The notes below the pieces were generated by a model, which was not told the DNA's origin, made no database searches, and saw only the letters and a list, made by a program, of their open reading frames with translations. A stretch of DNA of 64,000 nt from Carnobacterium inhibens subsp. inhibens DSM 13024 (GTDB lineage: Bacteria; Bacillota; Bacilli; Lactobacillales; Carnobacteriaceae). The stretch spans positions 2,036,501 through 2,100,500 of the forward strand of contig NZ_JQIV01000006.1 in the NCBI RefSeq assembly GCF_000746825.1. The letters are read 5' to 3'. Position numbers and translations under genes: made by a program. This document shows positions 6,809 through 55,737 of the stretch, piece by piece; within the stretch, counting starts at the first letter, position 1; each line of letters begins with the position of its first letter.

Positions 6809-8005
6809 TTGAATAAGAAATTTATTAATTTAGCTTTAGTAGCAGCATTAGGGTTCTCAACTTACATTGCTCCTATTACAGCATTTGCAAGTACAGACGA
6901 GGACATTAAAGCATCTACAGAAAAATTGGTGGATCTAGAAAATAAAGAAGCAACAGCAGAATCTCAATTATCAACTATCACTGCAACTATTGCAGACAAT
7001 GAAAAGAAAGCTGAATCATTGGTAGCAGATATGCAAGAAACACAAACGAGTATGAAAGTTCTAGAAGAACAAATTACTAACTTGAAATCAGCGATTGAAA
7101 AACGCGAAGCTAAGTTGGAAGAACAAGCACGTTCTGTACAAGTAGACGGGGATAGCCGCAACTTTGTTGATTTTCTTTTAAACGCTGAATCTATTTCTGA
7201 CGTTCTTGGACGTGTGGGTGTTGTTTCTCAAATCGTATCTGCAAATCAAAGTTTAGTTGAAGCACAAGCAGCTGATCAAGATGCTGTAGTTGCAAAACAA
7301 AATGAAACTGAAGAAAAAGTAGAAGAACAAACACTATTAGCTGCAAAATTAGAAGCATCTAAAACAGATTTAGAACAACAAAAATTAGAAAAAGAAGCAG
7401 TTGTTGCATCAATTGCAGCTGAAAAATCTGTAGTAGAAAATGAAAAAGAAAAATTCTTGGCTGTTAAAGCAGCAGCTGAAAAAGGAGCAGAAGAGTTAGC
7501 ACTTGTAAAAACAACTGCAACTAGTAACTCTTCAGCATCAGTTGAAACAGTTTCTACAAAAACAACAGTTGCTTCAGAAGTAACGGCTAAACCAGCAGCA
7601 ACTGAAAAAGCTGTTGAAACAAAAAAAGCAACAACTTCAAATGATTCATGGACAACAATTAAAAATGCTGCTTATGGAGTTATAGGAACACCTTATTTAT
7701 ACGGCGGAACAAGTACTAGTGGTTTTGACTGTTCTGGTTTTACTATGTATGCATTTTCTGCTGCTGGAATCAATCTTCCACGTACAGCTGGTGCTCAGTA
7801 TGCGGCTTCAACTAAGGTTTCACAATCTGAAGCGCAACCTGGCGATTTAGTATTCTTCAATCAAACAGGAAGTATTGACCATGTTGGTATCTATCTTGGA
7901 AACAATCAGTTTATCGGTTCTCAATCTTCATCAGGTGTAGCTGTTACAACAATCAGCCAAGCTTACTGGGCTCAATACTTAGTTGGATTTGGACGTATCA
8001 ACTAA
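6809..8005 (+). CDS. Secreted NlpC/P60 peptidoglycan hydrolase with coiled coil (CwlO/PcsB-like)
   Basis: 398 aa from a TTG start with a GGGGGAAAAC-type ribosome site. It has a signal peptide (hydrophobic 9-24, cleavage near AFAS). A long charged coiled coil (about 35-225) and a Thr/Ala-rich linker follow. The C-terminal NlpC/P60 endopeptidase domain (about 280-398) shows catalytic Cys308 in FDCSGF and His358 in DHVGIYLG. Coiled-coil P60 or CHAP hydrolases of this shape (CwlO in Bacillus, PcsB in streptococci) are held inactive until FtsEX activates them. Lying directly after ftsEX, this is the probable FtsEX-controlled hydrolase that splits peptide cross-links during growth or division. Confidence 0.9.
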   Translation: MNKKFINLALVAALGFSTYIAPITAFASTDEDIKASTEKLVDLENKEATAESQLSTITATIADNEKKAESLVADMQETQTSMKVLEEQITNLKSAIEKREAKLEEQARSVQVDGDSRNFVDFLLNAESISDVLGRVGVVSQIVSANQSLVEAQAADQDAVVAKQNETEEKVEEQTLLAAKLEASKTDLEQQKLEKEAVVASIAAEKSVVENEKEKFLAVKAAAEKGAEELALVKTTATSNSSASVETVSTKTTVASEVTAKPAATEKAVETKKATTSNDSWTTIKNAAYGVIGTPYLYGGTSTSGFDCSGFTMYAFSAAGINLPRTAGAQYAASTKVSQSEAQPGDLVFFNQTGSIDHVGIYLGNNQFIGSQSSSGVAVTTISQAYWAQYLVGFGRIN

Positions 8006-8060
8006 ATTAGTCATTAAACTAAATTAGTCATTAAACTAAATTAGTCATTAAACTAAATTA
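8000..8060 (+). repeat. 17-bp tandem repeat overlapping the P60 stop codon
   Basis: Three exact copies of AACTAAATTAGTCATTA (8000-8016, 8017-8033, 8034-8050) and a 10-base partial copy. The first copy supplies the last sense codon and the TAA stop of the hydrolase gene. Confidence 0.97.
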
Positions 8061-53368: not shown

Positions 53369-53866
53369 ATGACAATGGAAATTCGATTGGCTCGTATTGA
53401 TGATCGATTGATTCACGGTCAAGTTGCAACCGTATGGGCAAAAGAAACAAAAGTAAACCGAATTTTGGTAGTAAGTGATGAAGTCGCAAAAGATATGTTA
53501 AGAAAAACATTATTAAAACAAGCTGCTCCTCCAGGTGTTCATACAAACGTTATTACGATTGATAAAATGATTGCCATTTTTAATGACCCTAAATTTGATA
53601 GTTTCAAAACAATGTTATTGTTTACTAATCCTTATGATGCTAGAAGAGTAGTTGAAGGTGGAGTAGTCTTAAAATCCATCAATATTGGTGGGATGAGTTT
53701 TTCAGAGGGGAAAAAGATGATCACAAATGCCGTTGCAGTGAATAACCAAGATATAAAAGACTTGAAGTATTTAAGCAATCAAGGAATCGAGTTAGAGATA
53801 CGTAAAGTAGCAGCGGACAGTAAAGTTTATATGATGGATTTATTGAAAAAAGAAAAAATGATATAA
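53369..53866 (+). CDS. PTS EIIB component, mannose/fructose/sorbose family, orphan
   Basis: 165 aa. The phosphorylatable His16 lies in IDDRLIHGQVATVW, and the rest of the EIIB-Man fold is visible (LFTNPYDARRVVEGGV, INIGGMSFSEGKKMI, GIELEIRKVAADS). It is complete but stands alone, with no IIA, IIC or IID gene nearby. It may serve another EII complex, act as a phosphorylation partner of the LevR-type activator, or be the relic of a lost operon. A weak sigma-54-like site lies 80 bp upstream. Confidence 0.92.
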   Translation: MTMEIRLARIDDRLIHGQVATVWAKETKVNRILVVSDEVAKDMLRKTLLKQAAPPGVHTNVITIDKMIAIFNDPKFDSFKTMLLFTNPYDARRVVEGGVVLKSINIGGMSFSEGKKMITNAVAVNNQDIKDLKYLSNQGIELEIRKVAADSKVYMMDLLKKEKMI

Positions 53867-53962
53867 CCTCTAGTCAAATAGGTTTGTTTATTCTAATTGC
53901 AGTCATTTTGGATAAATGGATCTATGACTTTTAGTGTGGATAGATTAGAGTATGTTTTAATA

Positions 53963-54094
53963 CTAGTTTGACGAAAGGAAAATAGCCACTAAACAGACAA
54001 AGGCACGATAAACTATTGCGAGTTTATCATACCGTCTTGTTGCAAGAGGCCCAACTGTTTCGAAAATGGACCGATTTGACAATGATATGGGAAA
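53963..54094 (-). pseudogene. IS5-family transposase, C-terminal remnant
   Basis: On the minus strand, 43 codons end at a TAG (53963-53965). They include FETVGPLATRRYDKLAIVYRAF and VAIFLSS. The ATRYDKLA-type segment followed by a hydrophobic tail is typical of the C-terminus of IS5/IS427-type transposases. A stop codon interrupts the frame upstream and no catalytic residues are left, so this is a decayed fragment. Confidence 0.75.
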
Positions 54095-54144
54095 TTACTG
54101 TCGCTTTCAACGGAGAATCTTATTTAAGTTGGGGTATTGAACCT

Positions 54145-54450
54145 TGATTGGACTAACTCAGAACCGTTTACTGTTTGAGTAGACGCAATAAGCTTTAATT
54201 CGATTAACTCAGAATCGTATTCCGTTTGAGTAGACACAATAAGCTATAATTCGGTTAACTCAGAACCGTTTTTCATTTGAGTAGGCATAATAAGCCATAA
54301 TTCGATTAACTCAGAACCGTTTACCGTTTGAATAGACGCAATAAGCTATAATTCGGTTAACTCAGAACCGTTTTCCATTTGAGTAGACGCAATACGATTT
54401 AGTTCGACCAATTTAGAATAGGATACCAGTTGAATGGATCAAATCTAAGA
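54145..54450. repeat. 51-bp tandem repeat array
   Basis: Five clear copies with an exact 51-bp period (CTCAGAA at 54157, 54208, 54259, 54310 and 54361), plus a diverged sixth from 54412. Each unit holds a short dyad (ACTCAGA...TTTGAGT). Stops occur in all six frames, so the repeat is not coding. Copies differ by several substitutions, so the array is not very recent. Confidence 0.95.
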
Positions 54451-54503
54451 GATAATACCATTCTTTCCATTAACATTCATCTTAGAGAATGTGTCAAATA
54501 ATT

Positions 54504-54555
54504 AAAAAAAAGAACGGTATAGGGGTAAAGTTGTTCCTATACCGTTCTTTTTTTT
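54504..54555. terminator. Long, probably bidirectional terminator before serC
   Basis: A 20-bp perfect stem (54504-54523 with 54536-54555) with eight As at one end and eight Ts at the other. Confidence 0.93.
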
Positions 54556-54602
54556 GCTCAGTTATAAAAAAATCAAATTTGTCTTTTTAAATAACAAAAT
54601 AC

Positions 54603-54611
54603 TGGTATAAT
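54603..54611 (+). promoter_or_regulatory. Extended -10 promoter of serC-serA
   Basis: TGGTATAAT is a TGN-extended perfect TATAAT, 46 bp before serC. The nearest -35-like TTGTCT is 21 bp away. Confidence 0.6.
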
Positions 54612-54657
54612 TAAAATTAGATTAATTTTTATAATACATTATTAGGAGCGGATTAAA

Positions 54658-55737
54658 ATGGAACGAGTTTTCAATTTTTCAGCAGGACCAGCTATCATGC
54701 CGGTGCCTGTATTAAAAATCATTCAAAAAGATTTATTATCTTATCAAGGCAGTGGTATGTCGGTAATGGAATTGAGTCACCGCTCCTCTTTATTTCAATC
54801 CATTATAAATGATGCAGAATCACTTTTACGTGAATTAATGGAAATTCCTTCAAATTATAAAGTATTATTTCTTCAAGGTGGAGCGAGTTTGCAATTTACG
54901 ATGGTACCATTAAATTTAGGGAAAAATAAAGTAGCCTATGTTGATACTGGAAGCTGGTCTAAAAAAGCCATAGAAGAAGCTCAAAAAGTAGAAGGCTTAA
55001 CAGTAGACGTTATTGCTAGTTCTAAAGAAAATCATTATGCTAAAAATCCTATTATTCCTTTAGTTGATAAAGAATATGACTATTTACACATAACAACGAA
55101 TAATACTATTGAAGGAACGGCTTTTTTGAACATTCCAACTAATATAAATGTTCCTGTAGTTGCGGATATGTCTTCTAATATTTTATCGAGCAGTTACAAT
55201 GTCTCTGATTTTGGATTAATTTATGCTGGTGCTCAAAAAAATATTGGCCCTTCTGGTTTGACGGTCGTTATTATTCGTGAGGATTTAATGGAGCAAAAGA
55301 ATCAGTTACCTGCAATGTTGGATTATAAAGTTCAAACAGATAATGGTTCTATGTACAATACGCCGCCGACTTTTGCGATTTATGCTGCAAAATTAATGTT
55401 TGAGTGGCTAAAAGAATTAGGCGGTGTTGCAGAGATAGAAAAAATTAATCGAACAAAAGCTGAATTGCTTTATGAAGCTATTGAAAACTCAACATTGTAT
55501 CGTTCTCCAGTGTCTGCAGAGTCACGTTCCTTGACCAATATTCCATTTCTGACTGGAAAAGAAGAGTTGGACAAATTATTTATCATACAAGCTGAAAGTA
55601 AAGGATTTATGAATTTAAAAGGTCATCGCTCAGTAGGTGGAATGAGAGCCAGTTTATATAATGCTTTTCCATTAGAAGGTGTAAAAGCATTGGTTGCTTT
55701 TATGAAAGAATTTGAAGCAAACGTAGGAGGAGTATAA
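54658..55737 (+). CDS. serC: Phosphoserine aminotransferase
   Basis: 359 aa PLP enzyme, second step of serine synthesis (3-phosphohydroxypyruvate to phosphoserine). The PLP lysine Lys194 is in [13 protein letters not shown]-terminal FNFSAGPA and the MELSHRS motif are typical, as is the C-terminal [15 protein letters not shown]. serA follows with one base between the stop and start. Confidence 0.96.

Follow-up and report, generated by a model that had tools for sequence, protein, structure and literature searches.

51-bp tandem arrays as probable cores of a small, non-coding IS5-derived element family in Carnobacterium

Pneumococcal BOX, whose boxB unit is about 45 bp long, and BrickBuilt/PgRS of Porphyromonas gingivalis appear, by analogy, to be the closest kin of the elements described here. 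BrickBuilt and MITE464/PgRS have been described as IS5-type MITEs with 23- and 41-nt minisatellites, BrickBuilt being always intergenic, present in about 10-20 copies and bounded by both terminal inverted repeats (TIRs) in 4 of 19 copies (Klein et al., 2015, PMC4596501; statements on published systems, here and below, refer to the passages of the cited papers that deal with these elements). BOX is built of end-(unit)n-end modules of variable copy number, with orthologous copies of differing length and open frames in large copies; it is found in some streptococci, and ISSpn2 is its proposed partner (Croucher et al., 2011, PMC3049150). The Streptococcus mitis genome paper is a source on BOX positions (PMC2828477), and BrickBuilt/PgRS and BOX both figure in a review of MITEs in prokaryotes (PMC10969869). 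The open-access literature, searched by title and abstract start, yielded no such description from Carnobacterium nor, as far as the search wording reached, from Lactobacillales as a whole; the kind of element is thus a known one and the Carnobacterium family appears to be new. The arrays reported here are very probably the cores of a small non-coding, IS5-derived transposon relic present in many copies across the genus. Few bacterial MITEs with a trapped minisatellite are on record, and this family, apparently undescribed so far, is a further one; since its arms can still be recognised as IS-derived, it illustrates a way in which elements of this kind can originate.

The window, by which we mean the whole 64-kb stretch of DNA that was analysed, carries between two genes a tandem array of five 51-bp units, as the original prediction had described, placed by TRF at 54147-54394 (period 51, 4.9 copies, 85% matches, 0% indels, score 363). 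The interval first assigned to it, 54145-54450, holds the array, and the feature as a whole is larger, extending from near 53948 to near 54459 (Table 1). The internal dyad is likewise real: the motif TT-N7-CTCA-N15-TGAG-N7-AA occurs four times in 64 kb, always within the array (54148, 54199, 54250, and 54352), against a maximum of 0 in 100 shuffles, and the right half of unit 4 is altered (TTTGAAT). All frames had been called closed, and we found no ORF of at least 60 aa with an ATG, GTG or TTG start overlapping the array, the longest open stretch being 33 codons, antisense. The alternation of CGATTAA and CGGTTAA junctions was also recovered, and TRF scores a 102-bp period above the 51-bp period (389 vs 363); growth by a 102-bp step, read from that alternation, is not borne out by whole-unit identities, which are 44, 43, 42, and 42 of 51 at lag 1, 42, 46, and 41 at lag 2, 47 and 41 at lag 3, and 44 at lag 4, with 0.863 at lag 1 vs 0.859 at lag 2 over all arrays. 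A separate observation comes from the array at 606 kb in G002 (L022, reverse complement 1449-1959), where units recur as a five-unit block of 255 bp, an indication that growth may proceed by several units at a time. A CRISPR-like array was rejected, as the entire 51-bp unit repeats and unique spacers are absent. At gathering scores no Rfam family matched the array, the window returning one tRNA only, and sigma-70-like promoters numbered 1 in 53860-54670 vs 3.6 in shuffles.

The element lies 3' of a gene that we take to encode a PTS sugar-transport IIB subunit and is followed by a gene that is presumably serC. A terminator-like stem between the array and the second gene was judged to be part of the host operon and not of the element; stems of this kind were also seen by eye in the intergenic regions of relatives. 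The match of the window to the array element at 976 kb of its own genome (G000) covers 53953-54417, and TA stands directly outside the left end. No right terminal repeat could be located at the window copy; the element at 976 kb has one.

Table 1. Positions of the element and its neighbours in the window.
Feature	Position	Strand	Basis or remark
165-aa gene, upstream; element 3' of gene	53369..53866	+	ORF list; orthologue in 6/6 genus genomes
Left terminal inverted repeat GAGTATGTTTTAATACTA	53948..53965	+	2 mismatches to GGRYRTGTTTTAAAACTA; TA before it at 53946-53947
Left arm, derived from the reversed and decayed 3' (right) end of an IS5-family element	53953..54035	+	Local alignment to IS reverse complement (G001)
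Remaining left arm	54036..54147	+	Common to array element at G000 976 kb
Array, five 51-bp units	54148..54408	+	Dyad cores start 54148, 54199, 54250, 54301 (one change), 54352
Right module	54409..54459	+	Common to own-genome array elements at 976 kb, 2195 kb
Terminator-like perfect stem of 20 bp, with runs of A and T	54504..54555	+	Taken as part of the host operon
359-aa gene, downstream	54658..55737	+	ORF list; syntenic in 4 relatives without array

A search for the unit elsewhere, proposed as a check on the original prediction, found it in the genome of origin and throughout the genus: all six genus genomes (G000 to G005, G000 being that of the window) hold arrays, with at least 56 loci of the 51/52-bp unit, each of 1 to 13 units and 7 of them single units. 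Because the family recurs in six assemblies, a misassembly is not supported. The assignment to Carnobacterium comes from the similarity of a plasmid contig, for which all 4 records matched belong to this genus, the best being C. inhibens (96.6% over 47% of 20 kb). Further array loci of the own genome lie at about 656, 976, 1264, 1544, 1852, and 2195 kb, with a single unit near 980 kb, and its five smaller contigs showed no unit in the first 20 kb of each (19 kb being the whole of C4). A unit model built from sequence only gave at least 322 matches in the six genomes (37, 91, 49, 31, 82, and 32 for G000 to G005), counts that are lower bounds, with 150 of about 2600-2900 first-look candidates scored per genome; exact dyad matches numbered 30, 55, 42, 24, 22, and 20 in the same order, against 1 or 2 in a reversed control (forward counts). 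Outside the genus, 33 of 33 other genomes of the family and order had no DNA match, and among 12 other family genomes the unit model matched nothing in 10 and was weak in 2 (E about 0.003). Plasmid and phage collections, searched by distant BLAST, and viral contigs, searched with the exact pattern, gave no arrays. All 56 catalogued loci lie between genes as defined by a simple ORF caller, with ORFs called inside arrays, which run through the repeat, treated as spurious; the flanking genes are co-directional at 28 loci, convergent at 21, and divergent at 7. Loci absent from this catalogue include G001 318589, 403884, and 716332. Also outside it, G001 carries TIR-bounded elements of ~280-306 bp at C4 1121435-1121740 and 267039 (L151, L168), whose interior reads by eye like a few variant units.

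In the flanks of the arrays, left ends start with GGGTGTGTTTTAAAACTA directly after TA and right ends finish with TAGTTTTAAAACATATCC directly before TA. The TIR GGRYRTGTTTTAAAACTA, a consensus drawn from the flanks of these same arrays, was recovered at up to 3 mismatches on the left of 20 of the 56 loci, on the right of 14, on both sides of 11 and on at least one side of 23, whereas a control search 2 kb away gave 0/56 on either side. Within the distances searched, the other 33 loci had no TIR at this threshold on either side; they may have lost it by decay or have a different origin. Of the 11 two-ended elements, 9 are bordered directly by TA on both sides, as a target site duplication would be.

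Searching the genus with the end sequence led to an insertion sequence of about 859 bp (TA included) with like ends, which is intact in G001, a different species of the genus. Its two overlapping ORFs match the IS5 family model NF033580 (E 2.4e-33 and 7.6e-43, both over cut-off) and the DDE domain PF01609 (E 9.7e-18), which identifies an IS5-type DDE transposase. Its protein has 10 matches in G001, three fragments in G002, and none in G000, G003, G004 or G005 at E 0.001, and its nearest plasmid relatives are a Kurthia IS5 (66%) and ISLpl3 (64%). In local alignments of the arms to this IS, controlled with 300 mononucleotide shuffles, the left arm of the window copy aligns with the reversed right end of the IS (score 38, shuffle maximum 21), as does the left arm of the G000 976k element (55, maximum 26); in the G001 1177k copy the left arm scores 30 (maximum 20) and the right arm aligns with the IS left end (36, maximum 21). 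The G000 976k right arm matches the right end of the IS again and not its left end (32, maximum 22), and no alignment was obtained for the window right arm (10, shuffle mean 12.7), so that a plan of one IS end on each side was found only for G001 1177k; by eye, the right arms are of at least two kinds. The 51-bp unit does not match the IS (scores 11 and 10, shuffle mean 11.6), and an origin inside it was not found. The suggestion that the array marks an IS scar is therefore upheld for the left flank, which is an IS5-family end, the array residing in a non-autonomous derivative; the identity to a known IS that had been weighed against the original prediction extends to that flank and not to the unit. 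Compared with IS5-family insertion sequences, the array elements are alike in ends and arms and encode no transposase; the family shares its TIRs with the full-length IS, of which the window copy keeps the left end only, and has dispersed copies and empty sites in relatives. Internally deleted IS copies without an array were noted by eye at G001:C4 903439-903772, G002:C8 638717-639171, and G002 1128938 (L172, L167, L155), and are possible intermediates between the IS and the array-bearing elements.

At the site of the window array the two genes are 791 bp apart, vs 237 bp in G004, 206 in G002, and 193 in G005, and the gene pair is syntenic without the array in these three relatives and in G003, where 467 bp with a different insert separate the genes; the downstream gene was not found in G001. 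For the two-ended G004 551k element, the joined flanks align in G001, G002, G003, and G005 at 70-78% identity, cleanly across the junction in G001 and with gaps in the other three, and in G000 only the right flank was matched. Insertion is supported by these empty sites. Arrays also occupy orthologous sites in two to four species with differing unit numbers (for example 5/2/3 and 3/13/12), and the insertions are therefore of different ages. The insert at the window-array site in G003 (L134:1033-1380) is hairpin-rich, about 230 bp long, and has ends AAATTTCTTCTGGAAT / ATTCCTCCAGAAATTT; stretches similar to it by eye flank G004 arrays near 779, 854, 927, and 964 kb, and it is perhaps a second dispersed element family.

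Similarly to BrickBuilt/PgRS, the Carnobacterium elements have a MITE leader and tail, IS5-family TIRs, an internal minisatellite and a variable repeat number (PMC4596501). Membership of BrickBuilt itself was rejected, the TIR being GGRYRTGTTTTAAAACTA here vs GAGACCTTTGCA there and the unit 51/52 bp vs 23 nt, with a different unit sequence and phylum; moreover, the passages on BrickBuilt report no transposase remnant in the element and variable duplications, whereas the Carnobacterium arms tested still align to an IS and the elements have TA flanks (PMC4596501). The modular plan of BOX, end-(tandem unit)n-end, is found in the loci with both ends, and BOX is likened here by architecture, while the BOX-type elements of S. 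suis with boxE/boxF ends, in which one central unit stands between two end kinds, are likened by description (PMC3049150), the Carnobacterium right arms also being, by eye, of two or more kinds.

We propose that an IS5-family element would have retained its ends and lost its transposase gene, that a 51-bp sequence between these ends may then have been amplified into a tandem array, and that a transposase acting on the ends in trans could have inserted copies between genes, at TA sites, throughout the genus, unit number later shifting through slippage or unequal recombination. That such an enzyme acted is inferred, as the IS protein was not found in four of the genomes. The window copy would be an old relic that has kept its left end, the five units and a portion of the right arm. 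Against this account stand the one TIR of the window copy, the loci with no TIR at all and a unit without detectable IS origin.

Since the loops drift and the dyad and spacing are nearly fixed, the question of whether such an array is selfish or is read by something becomes testable. The arrays may be purely selfish or neutral minisatellites whose core and spacing result solely from homogenisation and recent copying, a reading to which we would give slightly less than an even chance. Homogenisation is evident among 241 units (matches of about 40 or fewer model positions having been dropped beforehand), as adjacent units of the same array are 0.86 identical, against 0.751 for other arrays of the same genome, 0.754 for orthologous arrays, and 0.726 for other genomes. 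The authors of the BOX study favour parasitic elements (PMC3049150), and those of the BrickBuilt study leave both neutral and advantageous maintenance open (PMC4596501). Neutral turnover does not, however, readily predict the strong heterogeneity of within-array changes among columns (chi2 429 on 44 df for columns 4-48, edge columns excluded, in the 42 of 55 arrays with three or more kept units), nor a mere 3 odd spacings in 208 at about 14% divergence. We favour a mainly selfish element over both sequence-specific recognition and RNA structure.

The dyad columns are among the slowest in that test: each column of TT (7-8), CTCA (16-19), TGAG (35-38), and AA (46-47) shows changes in 1 to 6 of 41-42 arrays, compared with 20 to 30 of 42 for the most variable loop and spacer columns, which leaves a conserved core consisting of a symmetric pair of TT-N7-CTCA half-sites. 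Spacing between adjacent units, taken from model anchors, is 51 bp in 127 of 208 cases, 52 bp in 78 and other in 3. A near-invariant dyad TT-N7-CTCA-N15/16-TGAG-N7-AA at 51/52-bp spacing suggests selection on putative phased binding sites or on hairpins. The original proposal that the array phases protein binding on one DNA face is consistent with the spacing (205 of 208 at 51 or 52) and with the slow half-site columns, the binding itself being putative. Tentatively, then, the array could be a platform of phased dyadic sites for a putative host DNA-binding protein, spread as a MITE and kept by selection, with a conceivable role in chromosome organisation or gene control. An array outside the catalogue agrees with this, as its three units (G001:C4 403884-404029) have a different loop, the same conserved dyad and 52-bp steps. 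The conservation and spacing tests are not independent, because units were found with the unit model, whose detection favours conserved columns, and because the arrays are related by copying. The dyad core is also not the sole constraint, given further slow columns (loop TTT at 27-29, and 14, 33, and 34), and at many loci the array sites differ between species. Isolated operator-like sites are rare, since one own-genome dyad site (1105810) lies outside known loci among 25 listed of 30.

The platform reading would also be served by orientation. In the five genomes that offer both a chromosomal contig and a dnaA position (G000-G004, the 8 loci of the fragmented G005 being excluded), the leading strand carries 37 of 48 loci, and 25 of 34 after orthologous sites are collapsed (p 0.009). 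The genes of these regions are equally biased (322/415 leading), and the array bias may therefore only follow gene direction. By fifths of the origin-terminus distance, the 48 loci number 5, 9, 7, 12, and 15. A more far-reaching form of this reading, in which a transposon-borne minisatellite became genus-wide phased binding platforms for a putative Carnobacterium protein, oriented with replication or transcription and carrying up to 13 copies of a 41-42 bp dyad at 51/52-bp helical steps, with loops and flanks drifting around a near-invariant core, is speculative and in our view rather doubtful.

Alternatively, the unit might act as RNA, forming in read-through transcripts a hairpin with an effect on the ends or the stability of the mRNA, as has been suggested for BOX; we consider this unlikely. 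Covariation in a 16-pair structure across 60 units hints at the RNA hairpins of the original prediction, in that double-change cells number 32 vs 17.4 in shuffles and the covariation score is 0.193 vs 0.161, values that 0 of 500 shuffles reach; the measures least prone to relatedness, however, are not raised, with 6 pairs changed on both sides (reached in 168 of 500 shuffles) and 21 further pair types (159 of 500), and the 9-pair inner core shows no covariation (93 of 500). When partners were taken from different arrays within one genome, one of five pairs tested exceeded its control (12-42, 0.726 against a maximum of 0.68), and 6-48, 13-41, 20-34, and 3-51 did not, while columns 5-49, 9-45, and 10-44 are unpaired. 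Folding of 45 arrays of 3 or more units, with 30 shuffles each, gave a mean z of -3.2 on the array strand (31 of 45 below -2) and -1.9 on the other strand (21 of 45), against which the window array scores -1.3 alone and -2.3 with its flanks. Within-unit and junction-centred hairpins were indistinguishable by the pairing comparison. A dyadic DNA site drifting symmetrically would produce the same covariation, and sequence-specific recognition is slightly preferred to RNA structure.

That the unit encodes a 17-residue repeat on the opposite strand is highly improbable, for although the antisense frame of the consensus is open (LVASTQMENGFELLELR) and the G002 606k array (L111) has an open antisense stretch of 221 codons, the frame is closed in the window array, variation at codon positions 1-3 (0.200, 0.183, and 0.172) shows no third-position excess, and 52-bp steps shift the reading frame. 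Another open antisense stretch, of 192 codons and with no codon-position signal, occurs in the array at 714 kb in G002 (L112), and both stretches are comparable to those described in large BOX copies. Elsewhere in the window, a perfect 17-bp tandem repeat of 3.6 copies (AACTAAATTAGTCATTA) lies at 8000-8060.
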